A stretch of DNA of 64,000 nt from Opitutales bacterium (GTDB taxonomy: Bacteria > Verrucomicrobiota > Verrucomicrobiia > Opitutales > JABSRG01). Location of the stretch: assembly GCA_028280845.1 (NCBI GenBank), contig JANQKZ010000035.1, positions 1 through 64,000 on the forward strand. The letters are read 5' to 3'. Shown one piece after another: positions 9,734 to 50,512 of the stretch (positions are counted from its first letter, which is position 1; every line of letters begins with the position of its first letter). The notes below the pieces were generated by a model. The model did not search any database and had not been told where the DNA came from. It saw nothing but the letters and a program-made list of their open reading frames with translations. A program made the position numbers and the translations under genes.

Positions 9734-11959
9734 TTAAGAGGCGGCGGCTTCGAGCATTTCTTCGGTCACGCCGTCCTCGCCCTTGATCATGTCCGGTGGG
9801 ACATTGGAGAGCGCTTCGACCATGGTGGAGGTTCCTTCTTTCACCTTGAGCATGCTGTCCTGGTGAAGGGTTTTCATACCGTTCCGCATAGCGACCCGCT
9901 TGAGGGTGGCGGTTTCGGACCCAGCGTTAATGGCCTTGGTGAGCTCCTCACTGTTAGTCATCAATTCATGAATACCGACACGACCTTTCATGGGAGGTCC
10001 TCCGATATCGTTATCGGCCGCTTTGTAAATTTCACCGACCCACCCGAGGGCGTTCTGGAGAATTTCGGCTTCATTTCCCTCTGGAGTATAGGCCACGGCG
10101 GTCTTTTTGTTGACGCGCCGCATGAGGCGCTGAGCGCAGACCACGAGGAGTGAGGTGGAAATCATGAAGGGCTCAATCCCCATATCCGTAAAACGTGCTA
10201 CGGTGGAGGGTGCGTCATTGGTGTGAAGGGTGGATAGCAACAAGTGACCGGTGAGGGCGGCTTCCACCGCGATTTCGGCCGTTTCCTGGTCCCGGATTTC
10301 CCCTACGAGAATGATGTCGGGGTCCATCCGCAGGTAAGCCCGAAGCGCACGGGAGAAGTCCAGGCCGATGGTCTTATGCATCTGCATCTGGTTAATACCG
10401 GGGATGGTGTATTCGATCGGGTCCTCCGCGGTTTGAATATTGATTGTTGGATCGGCAATTTCGCGGAGGGCGGAGAACAGGGTCATGGATTTACCCGAAC
10501 CGGTCGGACCGCAGTGCAACAACATCCCGTAGGGCTGTTCAATACAGGCCCGGTATCGTACCAGGTTTTCTTCGGAGAATCCCAGCGCCGTGATGGGCAA
10601 GGCACTTTTTGACTTATCCAGAATCCGCATGACGACCTTTTCCCCAAAGTTCATGGGTCCGGTGGCTACCCGGAGGTCGATATCAATATTTTTTTTAGTG
10701 TATTTCTTAAAGACAATCCGTCCGTCTTGGGGAAGTCGCTTTTCCGCAATATCGAGCTCGCTCATCACTTTGTAGCGAGCGACGAGGGCTCCGGTTGCCG
10801 TGCGGGGCAGGCGAAGCTTTTCCTGGCATACCCCATCAATTCGATAGCGGACGAGGAGTTCGTTTTCCTGAGGTTCAATGTGGATGTCCGACGCGCCGGT
10901 GATGTAGGCGTCTTCCACAATGCGGTTCGCAAGCTGAATGATGGGGGCGCTCTCCTCATCATCGAGTCCGCCATCGCCCCCGTCGTTATCCATCTGTTCG
11001 ACGTATTCTGCGCCGAGGGCATCGACCAGTTCACCAACATCGCCATCATCTTGTTTCAGGTCGTTCTGGGCTCCGGAGTCTTTGAAGTAGGTTTTGATGA
11101 GTTCTTCAATGAGACTGGCCGGGGCCACAAAGACTTCCTCCACCTGCATTTCCGTCGCGGTCGCAAAGCTTTCGCGACGTGGGTAATCCAGGGGGTTGGC
11201 CATGAGGGCCGAACAGGCTGTAGGGGATAAGCGTTTGATAGGGAAAATACCCTCCCGGCGAACGACGGCATCGCCAACGACCTCCAAGAGTTTTTCATCG
11301 ATATCGTTCAGGCGTTCCTTGTTGTCGATCAGTTCATTGCCGGTGAATTTAGAAATAAATTTCGCGGTATCCTTATCACTCAGTTCGAATTTGGCGTCCA
11401 TCATCCGCCCGAGGAGGGGAGCGGAGTATTCGGCCACTTCCTTTAACACATCGAGATCTTCCGGACTGAATTCGATCATCCCACTGGAGGGCTCTTTGTT
11501 GAGCACTTGAATGGCCCCGATGGTTTTGGCTGCCACGAGGGGGACGGTGATCATCGAGCTGACTTCGAAGCCCGTGTTTTGAGCGATGTTGTGCATCTGG
11601 TCGGCGTTGGTAGAAGCCGAAAAGAAGATACTTTCCGAATTCTCGATTACCTTGCCAACCACCCCGGTTCCCTTGGGCAGGCGAAGTTCTAACAGCTTTT
11701 TTTGTTTCTCTTTAAATTCTTCCTGCAGGCTGGGATCTTCAGCCCAGAGGGTGGGTGAAAAGTAAACATGTTTAAACGCGATATTATCTCCCTCAAGAAG
11801 GTAGAGGGTCATGGCCTGGGCCTGTAGAGCTTCCACGACTTTGCTGGAGGTGAGTTCGATAACAGACTGAACGTCTTCTCGGCTGGGGGAGGGTTTAGAA
11901 ATCACCTTCAGCAATAGCATGCGCCGAAGGGAACCAGACATGGCGGAGGCAGAGGGCAT
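9734..11959 (-). CDS. GAF-domain-fused type IV pilus assembly / type II secretion ATPase (PilB/GspE family)
   Basis: This is a hexameric ATPase that powers pilin polymerisation or type II secretion. The 741-residue protein starts with a GAF-like domain (about residues 25-185; [17 protein letters not shown] and [19 protein letters not shown] are the usual GAF strands). A linker region and then the GspE/PilB core follow. ASDIHIEP is at 356-363, Walker A GPTGSGKS at 484-491, the Asp box near 510-515, Walker B with [12 protein letters not shown] at 547-557, and the His box [13 protein letters not shown] at 570-582. The C-terminal tetracysteine zinc motif common in GspE and PilB is missing: the stretch between CAQRLMRR and KGRVGIHE has no CxxC. 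The GAF domain replaces the usual N1 domain. The pilM-N-O-like genes at 61.6 kb are the only other pilus genes in view. Confidence 0.9.
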
Positions 11960-45369: not shown

Positions 45370-45393
45370 AAATAGACCGTTTACGGTCTATTT
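45370..45393. terminator. Hairpin overlapping the SET-domain gene stop codon
   Basis: AAATAGACCGT (45370-45380) and ACGGTCTATTT (45383-45393) form a nearly perfect dyad; the stop codon of the minus-strand SET gene lies in one arm. Probably ends transcription from one or both convergent genes. Confidence 0.5.
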
Positions 45394-45819
45394 TACATCC
45401 TCACCGAGGACATCCCAGTATTCATCGCCGTAGTCGAAGAATAATTCTTCCTCGGGTTCGATTCGCTTCAGGGCTCGGATCTTGGCAGATTTCCAACGGG
45501 TGCTGGTTACCAGTTCGGCGTTGGGGGTGTTGCTGTGATTGATATACTTGGTGTAGTTGCCGTCGTGTCCTTGTGCGTCCAAGTACCAGTCAGTGCAAAT
45601 CCACACGAGGTAGCGCGAATTGACATAGGGCTCATTATTGGCCTGCTCCTCGGTGAGGCGTTTCCCCGTGTAATGGCCAATGATATCACCTTTGCGCAGG
45701 CGCTTCAGGGCGAAGAGGCCCAGCCCGATGCCAGCAATGGTGGAGGGCTTTACTTCGAAGTCTTCCTCAGAAAACCAAACCGGTTTTCGTTTACGGGTTT
45801 TCGGTTTGTTCTTCCCCAT
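45388..45819 (-). CDS. SET-domain protein (predicted protein lysine methyltransferase)
   Basis: SET enzymes transfer a methyl group from S-adenosylmethionine to lysine. The 143-residue protein is one compact SET domain after a basic head (KNKPKTRKRK). It has GIGLGLFALKRLRKGDIIGHYTG, the cofactor motif YINHSNTPNA (NHS at 94-96, with N where NHSC usually has C), and EELFFDYGDEYW with the catalytic-region Tyr130. There is no post-SET cysteine cluster. It lies between gpmI and a secreted-protein gene, divergent from the latter by 20 bp. A possible substrate, the H1-like tail protein, is encoded about 6 kb away. Confidence 0.87.
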   Translation of the reverse strand: MGKNKPKTRKRKPVWFSEEDFEVKPSTIAGIGLGLFALKRLRKGDIIGHYTGKRLTEEQANNEPYVNSRYLVWICTDWYLDAQGHDGNYTKYINHSNTPNAELVTSTRWKSAKIRALKRIEPEEELFFDYGDEYWDVLGEDVK

Positions 45820-45839: not shown

Positions 45840-46307
45840 ATGAAATCTCGCATTCCCCTCGGGGTCATCACGATACTGATAGTTATGAGTTCGCTGGAAG
45901 CTAAAGAAGAATTACTTGCTCATGACAAGGCCTTTGCCGATTTATCTTTAGAAAAAGGATACCTGGTCGCTTTTGCGGCTTATCTGCACCCGGATGTAAT
46001 CATGCTCAGCGATGGTAAGCTCCCGACTTTTGGATTGTCCGCTGCGTTGGACGGATTGCGCAGCGGGGCGGATGACTTTGATTTAGCCTGGGTTCCGCAG
46101 GATGGGGAAATCGCGCGATCGGATGATATGGGATACACATGGGGGTATTGGGAGCTGTGGCCGAAAGGCAAGGCAGGCCAAGGAGAGGCGCTCGTGTCCG
46201 GAAAATACCTAAATGTTTGGAGGCGGGATGCGAGCGGGGCTTGGAAGGTGTTGGTGGACATAGGCAATACCAATGGTCCGACCAAGGGATCCGAGTCCAC
46301 AGAGTAA
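45840..46307 (+). CDS. Secreted SnoaL/DUF4440-like protein
   Basis: The 155-residue protein has a short signal peptide (KSRIPLGVITILIVMSS, cleavage expected near residue 21) followed by an NTF2-like domain. AHDKAFADLSLEKGYLVAFAAYLHPDVIMLSDG at the start is the DUF4440 helix pair, and WGYWELWP ... GKYLNVWRRDASGAWKVLVDIGN forms the beta-sheet. Such proteins are often small enzymes or binding pockets of unknown ligand. It is divergent from the SET gene and is 110 bp before the S55 peptidase gene. Confidence 0.75.
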   Translation: MKSRIPLGVITILIVMSSLEAKEELLAHDKAFADLSLEKGYLVAFAAYLHPDVIMLSDGKLPTFGLSAALDGLRSGADDFDLAWVPQDGEIARSDDMGYTWGYWELWPKGKAGQGEALVSGKYLNVWRRDASGAWKVLVDIGNTNGPTKGSESTE

Positions 46308-46417: not shown

Positions 46418-48268
46418 ATGATCCACAGCCTTATTCAGCGAGTAGCTCTAAAACCGGATTGGGTCTTCGCTTTTCTTTTGTTTTCTGCTCCTCTTACCGC
46501 TGCGGAAATTCTCCCGCTTGATGCTATTGAGCCGGGGATGGAAGGGGAATTTAAAACTGTGATTGAGGGGACGGATGTGCAGTCCTTTCCCATTCGGATT
46601 GTCGGTGTCGCCCAGAATTTTATTGGCCCGGAACGGGCAGTTATTTTCGCTGAGGCCCTGGATTCCACGAATTTACTGTTTGGTGGGGTATCGGGAATGA
46701 GCGGTAGTCCGGTTTACATTGATGGAAAACTCATCGGCGCCTACGCGTATAGTTATAATTTTCCGAAGGAGCAAACCCTGATCGGAATCCAGCCGATTGA
46801 GCATATGTTTGAAATCACGGAATTTCATCCCCCGGAGCTCCCGGGGATGGGCACTCCTCGCCCCGCCCCAATGGATCGCATGGAAGATGCCGCGGTCCTA
46901 AGCTCGGATGGTTTGGCCAAGCAGCCTGAGCTCTCTTTTGAGTGGGTGAAAGGCGGGAAGGATTTCCCTGCTCAAAGCGCCCTTCAATTCAGCCAACTCC
47001 CCGTGCCGGTTGCCCTTGGAGGGTTCAGTCCCGAGGTAGTGGCCACCTTCCAACCCTATTTTGACCACATGGGACTGGGAGTCATGCAATCTCCGGTTGG
47101 GGGTAACCAGGAAGCTCTGCCTGCATACCTCGAACCGGGATCGGCCGTTGCAGGCGTACTCATGTCGGGCGATTTTAATGCAGCTGGAGTGGGAACGGTG
47201 ACCTATCGGGATGAGGATCGCATCCTCGCCTTCGGGCATCCTTTTTTCCAGAACGGACCGACGGAAATGCCGATGGCCTCGGCGGAAATCATTACGATTG
47301 TGCAAAGTCTGGCGCAGTCGTTTAAGCTGAGTAACATTGGGCCGGTCGTCGGATCGATCTACCAGGATCGATTGACCGGGATTGCCGGTGAACTCGGGCG
47401 GATGGCTCCGACCACGAAAATGAATATAGCAGTGGAAGCCCCGGGAGAGATTCGCCGAACCTATGAAGGGGACTTGTTTGAGCACCGCCAACTGAGTCCG
47501 ATGCTATCCGCGATGGCAATGATGCAATCTCTCTTTTCGACCATGGAGTCTGAAAGTGAGCAGACGATCTATTCTGAAATTACTATCGAGTTGGAAGGAC
47601 ATGATCCCATCGTACTAAAAGACGTGGCTAGCGGGACGAACGGGCCCATGCGGATGGTGATGGATTTTTACTCCATTTATTTTGGCTTGGCGAATAATCC
47701 CTTTGAGTTTCCTCGGGTGGAATCCATCGATTTTAATCTCAAGCTTGAGGACCAATGGAACCAGCAGCTGCTCGAACAGGTGATTGTGGAAAGTGGAGAA
47801 GCGATAGCTGGCGAGACGATCCAGGTCCGCATCCTCATGCGGGATTACATGGGAACTTCGCTATCGCAAGAGATTCAGATACCGATTCCCCATGGGACAG
47901 AGGGCGAAATATTGGAAATCCAGATTGGTGATGCCAGCACGGCCAACCAGAGTTGGTCCGTGAATCAGAATTCCAGTATGTTCCTGCCTCGTCCTGATTC
48001 ACGCAGCCTGACGGATATCGTGCGCTCCCTGGAAGACCGGCAGGGCTACCAGGCACTGTATGTCAAGGTGTTCCAACCGGGAGACGGGGTGCGGATGCGA
48101 GGAATCGACATGGATAACCTGCCCCCGAGTGTGGTGGCGAGTATTGCTTCGCCGAAGACGGCCGAGGTCATGCAGCGGACCAGTAAGTCGGAACGGTGGG
48201 GCGGGTCGTTTGCCACGGAAGGTGAGTTCCGCGGACGTTACACCTTCCGGGTTCAGGTAAGAGATTAA
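46418..48268 (+). CDS. Secreted SpoIVB-type (S55) peptidase-like protein with permuted motif order
   Basis: The 616-residue protein has a signal peptide (about 1-29). An early block, GMSGSPVYIDGKLIGAYAYSY (from residue 93), carries the catalytic Ser (Ser95 by analogy with GDSGG), then GIQPIEHM. A later block, GVGTVTYRDEDRILAFGHPF (258-276), has the histidine (His274). SpoIVB has the same two blocks in the opposite order (GIGTLTF...GH first, GMSGSP second), so the domain looks circularly permuted. The C-terminal about 250 residues are beta-rich. Its role outside sporulation is unknown; it is 12 bp upstream of a secreted beta-propeller gene, its likely partner. Confidence 0.8.
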   Translation: MIHSLIQRVALKPDWVFAFLLFSAPLTAAEILPLDAIEPGMEGEFKTVIEGTDVQSFPIRIVGVAQNFIGPERAVIFAEALDSTNLLFGGVSGMSGSPVYIDGKLIGAYAYSYNFPKEQTLIGIQPIEHMFEITEFHPPELPGMGTPRPAPMDRMEDAAVLSSDGLAKQPELSFEWVKGGKDFPAQSALQFSQLPVPVALGGFSPEVVATFQPYFDHMGLGVMQSPVGGNQEALPAYLEPGSAVAGVLMSGDFNAAGVGTVTYRDEDRILAFGHPFFQNGPTEMPMASAEIITIVQSLAQSFKLSNIGPVVGSIYQDRLTGIAGELGRMAPTTKMNIAVEAPGEIRRTYEGDLFEHRQLSPMLSAMAMMQSLFSTMESESEQTIYSEITIELEGHDPIVLKDVASGTNGPMRMVMDFYSIYFGLANNPFEFPRVESIDFNLKLEDQWNQQLLEQVIVESGEAIAGETIQVRILMRDYMGTSLSQEIQIPIPHGTEGEILEIQIGDASTANQSWSVNQNSSMFLPRPDSRSLTDIVRSLEDRQGYQALYVKVFQPGDGVRMRGIDMDNLPPSVVASIASPKTAEVMQRTSKSERWGGSFATEGEFRGRYTFRVQVRD

Positions 48269-48280
48269 CTTTCAACCTTC

Positions 48281-50512
48281 ATGCGTGTATTCAAATTTTT
48301 CACACAACTGGCACTGCTCGTACCTATGGTGCTTCAGGGCGCCCAGACCCTGCAGCAGGTCCATACCAATTTTAATGATTTTTCCAAGGGTGACCTTGAG
48401 AATCTGTCTCTTGATCAGTCCGGGATCCTAAGACCGGCCCCCAAGTTTATCGAGGTGGCTGAATATGGGGACCCGATTGTCTGGAAAGCGATTGCGACCG
48501 AAGACGGGCGACTCTTCATGGGGACGGGAAACGACGGGAAAGTGGTCGAAGTCGCAGCGAATGGCGACGTGACGGAGGTCTTTGACCCCGAAGAGATCCT
48601 GACTCGAGCTCTGGCGTTCGGGCCGGATGGGGCCTTATATGTAGGAACCTCGCCGAGCGGGCGAGTATACCGGTTAACCCAGCGTGCGGATGGCAGCTGG
48701 AACAATGCAGAGATTTATTTCGATCCCGAGGAATCCTACATCTGGGAACTGAAGTTTGATCCCGAAGGGAATCTCTATATCGCCACCGGGCAATCGGCGG
48801 TGATTTATCAACTGCCTCCTGGCTTCCAGGCCGGCCGGGATAAGGCGGTCGAGTATTTTCGTGCTCTCGAGACCCATTTCAGCGCCATGAGTCTGACCGG
48901 TGAAGGGCATCTCCTGGTGGGGTCCGGGCCGAGCGGGTACATTTACCGGGTAACTGGACGAGGGGAAGGGTTTGCCCTCTACAACGCGGATGTTCCCGAA
49001 ATCCGTGAAATCTTGCCCTTAGAGGATGGACGTATTCTTTTCGCCACTTTTGATACGGGCAGTTCTCGCCGCACGCGGACAAGCAGTGCATCATCTGCTT
49101 CCGGATCTTCGAGCTCATCCGCCTCCAGCCGGAGCAGTGACGAAGAAGGGGATCGGGATTCCGGGTCCGGGGGGAGTAGCTCCGCTGATGTATGGACCGT
49201 AACCGCTTTTTCGGGGAGTGGCAGTGAGGTCTATGAAATTGATGAAGACGGTTTTGTGGAGCTGTTCTGGGAGATTCCGGATGTCCAGGTCTATTCCCTG
49301 TACGCTGACCCGGAGGGCGGTATCCTGATCGGGAGTGGAAAAGATGGTCATATTTTCCGGTCGGACTCGCGCACGGATTGGGAGCTCCTGACGACGCTCC
49401 CCTCCGGTGGGGATGTCTCTGCCATTCTGCCGGTCCCCGGAAATACCCGGGGAGATGTTTACCTGTTTTGCAGCAACCCCTCCCGGGTGTATCGGCTCAG
49501 CGGTATCCGTACCGAATCAAGCCGGTTTACCAGTGAGATTGTGGATGCGAAACAGATTGCTGATTGGGGTCGAATGGACCCGCGATCAGTCGAAGGAGGA
49601 TCCGCCGTTGGCCGGGTTCAAATTGAGACCCGGACGGGAAACACACCCCGTCCTGACATGACCTGGAGTGATTTTGAAGCCCTGGATGGAGACCTGGTGG
49701 TGAGTCCCAATGCCCGTTACATGCAATACCGGATTGAGTGGGACGGTATGGAAGCCGCAGAGCTCCGAGCCATTCGCATGTTTTATCGGATGAAAAATGT
49801 TCCTCCCTTTATACAGAATATAAATATTGTTTCGGCCGGCTTCAGCCTGGTGACCGGGCCGCGCCCGCGGATAAACCTGGACATTAGCAAACTGACTGAT
49901 GCCAAAGATGCACGGGCCCTTCTGGCCGAGCCGCCGGCCCGCCAGCAGCTAGTGTTGGAACGAGAGGAGGCTGCGATGACCGCCGGGTGGAAAGCCTTTG
50001 ACGCGAACAAGGATCCCTTAACCTTTCGGGTGGAGCTTCTCAGTCCAGGGTCCTCTGATTGGCTGGTGGTGGCGGATGACCTCCGGGACCCGGTTTACTC
50101 CATGAACCTGAACGGCCTGGAGGAAGGGTATTACCGGATTCGGGTCACAGCGGACGACCAACTCGGAAACCTGCCGGGTGAAGGACGCACCTTTCAGAAG
50201 GAGAGCGATCCCTTTCTGGTTGATTTAACGCCCCCATCCATTGACTTGAATCTGGAGGAAGTCGCGGGGGACCGGACGATCATCCGAGTAGCTACCGCGG
50301 ATGAGTTTGGGATCGTTGCGGCTGCCGGGTATACCCTAAACGGGGGTGAGTTGACCCGGGTGTTTCCTGAAGATGGACTCCACGACTCTACTTCGGAAGC
50401 CTTTGTCCTTGACCTGAGCGGGCTGGGTGCGGGATCCCACAGCCTCGTTTTTGAGGTGGTGGATGAAGGCAATAATGTGGGCCGGCATCAGGTCGTCTTT
50501 TCCATCGAATAA
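48281..50512 (+). CDS. Large secreted beta-propeller protein
   Basis: The 743-residue product has a signal peptide (MRVFKFFTQLALLVPMVL). The first about 430 residues contain repeated blade-like phrases: GRLFMGTGNDGKVVEV, GALYVGTSPSGRVYRL, GNLYIATGQSAVIYQL, GHLLVGSGPSGYIYRV and GGILIGSGKDGHIFRS, as in NHL/SMP-30-like propellers. A 35-residue Ser-rich low-complexity loop with SSASS and SGSSSSS interrupts one blade (about residues 265-302). The C-terminal half has Ig-like beta domains. It lies 12 bp after the S55-like gene and 96 bp before aspS. Function is unknown; ligand or partner binding at the cell surface is likely. Confidence 0.75.
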   Translation: MRVFKFFTQLALLVPMVLQGAQTLQQVHTNFNDFSKGDLENLSLDQSGILRPAPKFIEVAEYGDPIVWKAIATEDGRLFMGTGNDGKVVEVAANGDVTEVFDPEEILTRALAFGPDGALYVGTSPSGRVYRLTQRADGSWNNAEIYFDPEESYIWELKFDPEGNLYIATGQSAVIYQLPPGFQAGRDKAVEYFRALETHFSAMSLTGEGHLLVGSGPSGYIYRVTGRGEGFALYNADVPEIREILPLEDGRILFATFDTGSSRRTRTSSASSASGSSSSSASSRSSDEEGDRDSGSGGSSSADVWTVTAFSGSGSEVYEIDEDGFVELFWEIPDVQVYSLYADPEGGILIGSGKDGHIFRSDSRTDWELLTTLPSGGDVSAILPVPGNTRGDVYLFCSNPSRVYRLSGIRTESSRFTSEIVDAKQIADWGRMDPRSVEGGSAVGRVQIETRTGNTPRPDMTWSDFEALDGDLVVSPNARYMQYRIEWDGMEAAELRAIRMFYRMKNVPPFIQNINIVSAGFSLVTGPRPRINLDISKLTDAKDARALLAEPPARQQLVLEREEAAMTAGWKAFDANKDPLTFRVELLSPGSSDWLVVADDLRDPVYSMNLNGLEEGYYRIRVTADDQLGNLPGEGRTFQKESDPFLVDLTPPSIDLNLEEVAGDRTIIRVATADEFGIVAAAGYTLNGGELTRVFPEDGLHDSTSEAFVLDLSGLGAGSHSLVFEVVDEGNNVGRHQVVFSIE

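Follow-up and report, generated by a model that had tools for sequence, protein, structure and literature searches.

SpoIVB-type peptidases and related systems

SpoIVB of Bacillus subtilis, an exported peptidase that we take to represent MEROPS family S55 (Pfam PF05580, Peptidase_S55), is the described system closest to the locus reported here, and many Acidobacteria proteins are named in the databases as SpoIVB peptidase S55 domain-containing. In the crystal structure of SpoIVB (9LNF) two beta-barrel subdomains meet at the active site, as set out in the available part of the structural report (PMC12502668). Among the literature searched, the nearest published SpoIVB-type domain in a non-sporulating diderm is that of Vpar_0521 of Veillonella parvula, which the available part of its description gives as an outer-membrane protein with an N-terminal SpoIVB domain and a C-terminal DUF1090 (PMC5491611); compared by that description, it shares with our locus the occurrence of such a domain in a non-sporulating diderm and differs in the reported DUF1090. 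Our searches of the literature on SpoIVB, S55 and permutation returned no description of a permuted SpoIVB or S55 domain, and a swap of the S55 blocks is not a subject of the available parts of PMC3808539, PMC6411480 and PMC5491611.

Here we describe a peptidase gene in a window of 64,000 nucleotides (the whole stretch of DNA that was analysed) from an Opitutales bacterium. Its product resembles SpoIVB in carrying both catalytic blocks with their flanks and in its presumed export; it differs in the reversed order of these blocks, in the lack of a detected PDZ domain, in a C-terminal region of ~260 residues, in a propeller partner gene, and in coming from a genome without Spo0A_C. The product is not SpoIVB itself, since it scores 29.3 bits against the NCBIfam equivalog model TIGR02860, for which the cut-off is 305.25. 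The source genome encodes no other PF05580 protein at E<=1. Spo0A_C is absent from it at E<=0.01, the B. subtilis control being matched, and this absence supports the suggestion, made in a preliminary description from the sequence alone, that the bacterium does not sporulate.

A putative peptidase with the S55 blocks in swapped order

The features of the gene and its product are as follows, in window coordinates:
46418..48268, + strand: permuted S55-like peptidase gene, an ORF of 616 aa, with PF05580 in two swapped stretches
46418..46504, + strand: probable signal peptide, residues 1-29, the sole strongly hydrophobic segment in a hydropathy scan, with a presumed cleavage site
46511..46819, + strand: Ser block, residues 32-134, corresponding to the C-terminal half of the SpoIVB S55 domain (Pfam 124-191, 9LNF, hhalign)
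46700..46702, + strand: Ser95 codon, putative nucleophile, aligned with SpoIVB Ser378 in the 9LNF alignment (by our own count along the chain)
46820..47122, + strand: linker, residues 135-235, connecting the canonical C-terminus to the canonical N-terminus, without a PDZ match
47123..47473, + strand: His block, residues 236-352, corresponding to the N-terminal half of the S55 domain (Pfam 12-79, hhalign)
47171..47173, + strand: Asp252 codon, invariant acid, equivalent to the Asp preceding AGIGT in canonical SpoIVB
47237..47239, + strand: His274 codon, putative general base, aligned with SpoIVB His236 (same count)
47366..47368, + strand: Asp317 codon, invariant acid, 43 residues past His274; mostly Asn at the matching motif place of canonical SpoIVB
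47474..48265, + strand: C-terminal region, residues 353-616, with at best a weak MG2/Ig-like resemblance (residues 464-519, E 0.21)

PF05580 matches the window peptidase with 36.3 bits, above the curated cut-off of 25. In a whole-genome search the match falls into two stretches, profile positions 123-192 at residues 43-111 followed by profile positions 12-79 at residues 254-318; a single collinear domain with the His block first was not found. The split and swapped matches are those that the preliminary description had proposed to look for, and its placement of a GMSGSP block with Ser95 first and a His274 block about 165 residues later holds: Ser95 and the His274 of the FGHPF motif are 179 residues apart, and the GVGT start lies ~162 residues past Ser95. 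The peptidase is related to Peptidase_S55, with a block order unlike that of the family.

The canonical order, claimed in the same description to be the His block followed by the Ser block, was compared in nine ORFs of the SpoIVB type taken from records of plasmids and phages; two of the nine carry the annotation SpoIVB peptidase and lie beside spo0A. All nine agree: the GxGT...GH block comes first in each, and an exact GMSG.P follows in eight, the ninth having GNSG. As a separate observation, SpoIVB together with spo0A occurs here in records deposited as plasmids (L126-L128), and SpoIVB-type ORFs occur in records deposited as "phage" (L129-L134); these may be misassigned pieces of clostridial chromosome, the phage ones being unverified faecal scaffolds.

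Evidence for a circular permutation

Residues 32-134 and 236-352 were excised and fused with the second piece ahead of the first. For 4/4 proteins treated in this way the construct matches PF05580 as one stretch, from profile position 12 or 13 to 192-203, with 42.4, 48.7, 33.9 and 42.6 bits, whereas the pieces of the window protein, left in their native order, match in two stretches (the best covering 124-192) with a total of 40.7 bits. The gain in bits is small, and it is the gain in collinearity that speaks for the rotation. A rotated profile of eight sequences aligns from 20-201 with SpoIVB 9LNF chain positions 119-302 (E 9.6e-10), whereas the native full-length profile aligns through the Ser block alone (chain 220-297, E 2.3e-8). 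Profile-profile comparison with hhalign scores 122.8 over 179 columns for the rotated order versus 104.4 over 101 columns for the native order, the Ser block by itself scoring 103.3.

The joint presence of the two motifs could instead be accidental, with homology to S55 confined to the Ser half and none in the GxGT...GH half. The His half is indeed weak when taken by itself, with 17.5 bits in Pfam (E 0.0043; below the cut-off of 25) and an hhalign probability of 16.4%. Its hhalign score of 29.0, however, compares with 60 column shuffles that average 14.1 and do not exceed 20.5, a shuffled His block joined to the true Ser block reaches at most 105.7, and the single collinear alignment appears after rotation in 4/4 proteins; we therefore regard an accident as very unlikely. 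Searches of the linker and the C-terminus of the peptidase found no extra copy of either block, and no duplication intermediate of a permutation was seen in these two regions. Because of the collinear matches after rotation, the shuffle control and the lack of an extra block copy, a circular permutation, as first suggested in the preliminary description, is well supported at the level of sequence: the rotated construct is collinear with PF05580 12-192 and with 9LNF 119-302. A domain permuted so that the Ser half precedes the His half, without a PDZ domain, is the best reading, and the swapped blocks plausibly correspond to the two beta-barrels of 9LNF. AlphaFold2 gave a mean pLDDT of 37.5 for the full length and 35.7 for the domain only, figures obtained with five input sequences of which four lie close together; at these values the models speak neither for nor against the fold.

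A Pfam scan of 14 family members returned no PDZ domain at E<=1. We considered a PDZ domain hidden in the linker, as there is a weak second-best alignment into the canonical PDZ, but rejected it: the linker alone scores 9.0, shuffling the linker has no effect, and its comparison with canonical SpoIVB is not significant. When the PDZ was deleted from canonical SpoIVB (in 6/9 canonical sequences, those matched by the motif pattern), the rotated alignment lengthened from 180 to 193 columns and 3/100 shuffles reached the His-block score; in an earlier version with 1/9 canonical sequences, 9/100 shuffles reached the score. A canonical PDZ inserted in the His barrel is kept as a lead only.

Candidate catalytic residues

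Conservation was counted in a wider set of 57 family sequences, leaving out the aligned His of L110, a 174-aa fragment without the GH motif. Ser95 is Ser in 57/57, and His274, Asp252 and Asp317 are each invariant in the 56/56 sequences that reach them. Glu290 was considered as the catalytic acid and set aside, being Glu in just 47/57. The counterpart of Asp252 is the Asp of an R/K-D pair in all nine canonical ORFs, one residue nearer to AGIGT. Asp317 lies within the motif GxIxQDRLxxIxG, whose canonical counterpart is GDINRNSPFGIFG, where the residue is mostly Asn (Asn290 in B. subtilis, by our own residue count); this pairing is a reading, since HMM alignments put the stretch elsewhere, with low confidence. 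The distance of 43 residues between His274 and Asp317 is near the His57-Asp102 spacing of chymotrypsin.

For SpoIVB, the available part of the 2025 crystal paper places Asp363 ~24 A from His236 and proposes Thr393 instead (PMC12502668). In the permuted family the Asp363 place (position 82) is Gly in 13/57 members and the Thr393 place (position 110) is Ala, Ser or Gly and never Thr in the 57 sequences, so that neither of the third residues proposed for SpoIVB is kept. In catalysis Ser95 is probably the nucleophile and His274 the base, the candidate acids being Asp317 and Asp252.

The existence of more than one candidate acid, and the C-terminal ~260 residues without an S55 element, would also fit a domain that has lost its enzymatic role and acts as a scaffold to which the propeller described below binds. 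The invariance of Ser95, His274, Asp252 and Asp317 speaks against this, given a mean identity of ~31% in the 37 two-gene loci, and we think a scaffold distinctly improbable.

Distribution of the permuted family

The swapped order is shared by the whole family as sampled: the Ser block is ahead of the His block in 34/34 sequences, a set made up of the window protein and 33 ORFs, 4 of which are near-copies of one lineage. All 14 members of the family alignment A1 match PF05580 at E<=1, and the window peptidase matches A1, which includes it, over its whole length (E 7.8e-218). The family was found in 33/288 sampled genomes of the window's phylum by its own profile, in 25/52 relatives (partly the same genomes as the 288) and in 7/7 genomes of a second phylum, that of bacterium ADurb.Bin236 / UBP15. 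A count by PF05580 of 53/288 genomes was reduced to 33, the 20 weaker loci having no family-profile match at E<=1e-3. No match to the window peptidase or a homologue was found in the plasmid collections, nor to the A1 family in viral contigs.

The ADurb.Bin236 / UBP15 phylum also has a second, longer group of paralogues (714-786 aa; L106, L107, L108, L109 and L083) with the same swapped order, some of them near purine-synthesis genes; no propeller gene was found in their fetched flanks.

Co-occurrence with a secreted propeller protein

The gene downstream of the peptidase is the following:
48281..50512, + strand: partner, a secreted beta-propeller and Ig-like protein of 743 aa, 12 bp downstream of the peptidase gene

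Pfam identifies Reg_prop repeats and weaker Ig-like matches in the partner, which by profile comparison is similar to beta-propellers of the PDB. It shares Reg_prop repeats and a weak similarity with the periplasmic Reg_prop / Y_Y_Y sensors of hybrid two-component systems (4a2l, 3v9f), and differs from these in being a free secreted protein encoded beside a peptidase gene, with a match that comes without a kinase. Both proteins have a signal-peptide-like N-terminus by eye, while a hydropathy window above 1.6 occurs in the peptidase only.

The propeller profile matches 33/288 genomes, exactly the 33 with the peptidase; among the 52 relatives it matches 26, the same 25 with the peptidase and G320, an assembly 86% complete in which the match is a 197-residue piece at a contig start. 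Both genes are present in 7/7 genomes of the second phylum. We examined 64 loci: 37 have both genes, in all 37 on the same strand with the peptidase first, and 33 of these pairs are directly adjacent, the remaining four (L087-L090) having at least one gene between. Six loci have the peptidase without a propeller at the cut-off used (L033, at a contig end, and five of the paralogue type), L110 has a peptidase fragment at a contig end, and 20 others have neither gene. Gaps between the two genes range from -35 to 88 bases in 25 loci, figures that depend on the choice of the first start. The distance matrices of peptidase and propeller correlate with r = 0.94, a value that shared descent alone could yield; it should likewise be noted that co-occurrence was measured among related genomes, which are not independent evidence. 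There is strong support for a link between the two genes, and the pairing suggests a two-part protease system in bacteria without apparent sporulation. The paralogue group without a propeller nearby is a point against a two-gene system.

Across the lineages compared, no third neighbour gene is common: the hemL-type aminotransferase, the TIM-barrel protein, the MauG-like cytochrome, iPGM and aspS are not shared, and nothing firm about a pathway can be drawn from them.

Proposed function

We consider it fairly probable that the gene product is a serine peptidase of two barrels, exported and circularly permuted from S55 (SpoIVB), that acts outside the cytoplasm together with the propeller of the next gene; the fold, the catalysis, the export, a physical complex and a substrate are the parts that we infer. 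An S55 (SpoIVB) ancestor would have undergone a circular permutation that placed the Ser-bearing half ahead of the His-bearing half. The product would be exported and act outside the cytoplasm, where Ser95 would attack as the nucleophile, with His274 as base and Asp317 or Asp252 as acid, and the secreted propeller would bring substrates to the peptidase, detect a ligand or control entry to the active site.

The presence of a single fixed partner, with no third gene conserved across lineages, would also fit a peptidase whose only task is a single maturation cut, in itself or in the propeller, with no other substrate; SpoIVB itself has self-cleavage sites, according to the available part of its structural report (PMC12502668). 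We think such self-processing unlikely as the whole function. A role in signalling of the site-1 type, with the propeller as the sensor of an envelope signal and a membrane regulator as the target of the peptidase, is suggested by the homologue SpoIVB, which works in a regulated intramembrane proteolysis pathway according to the available parts of the literature on it, and by the Reg_prop type of the propeller, known from hybrid two-component sensors. The neighbourhoods argue the other way: apart from the propeller, the lineages compared have no neighbour gene in common, so their flanks show neither a conserved regulator nor a conserved sigma factor or site-2 protease, and we rate this role as improbable too.

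An extended version of the favoured reading, a permuted exported peptidase working with its propeller, is possible, and we put it forward tentatively and with considerable doubt. The two proteins might form an undescribed protease system of the envelope, occurring in two phyla or more, in which a dedicated propeller controls in trans how substrates reach the PDZ-less peptidase. The peptidase might have kept a real Ser-His-Asp triad in which Asp317 stands where chymotrypsin has Asp102 and whose acid became Asn290 in SpoIVB, and the PDZ of canonical SpoIVB might have been inserted later, between strands one and two of the His barrel. A triad kept here and changed in SpoIVB would explain why the SpoIVB crystal lacks a proper acid.

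Natural circular permutations of two-barrel serine proteases are uncommon, and the swapped S55 domain is a family in two phyla, not a single oddity. It gives SpoIVB an external reference on the question of the third catalytic residue: the family keeps two other Asp residues and neither Asp363 nor Thr393. The co-occurrence of the propeller with the permuted peptidase is new here, and through this strict pairing a protein family with poor annotation acquires a definite partner.

Other genes of the window and the compared loci

In L089 the gene between peptidase and propeller (L089:6111-7187) encodes a MauG-like di-haem cytochrome c peroxidase, and an intervening gene is also present in L087 and L088, loci of the one lineage that shows this arrangement. 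Directly upstream of the window peptidase lies a gene for a DUF4440 protein (45840-46307, + strand), which has no match in the 24 neighbourhoods compared. Also just upstream, a gene on the - strand (45388-45819) encodes a SET-domain protein of 143 aa (PF00856, E 2.3e-19); SET domains are better known from the methyltransferases of eukaryotes. Elsewhere in the window, an ATPase of the T2SSE type (9734-11959, - strand), which carries GAF and MshEN domains, combines a motor of the pilus or type II secretion kind with a sensor domain.
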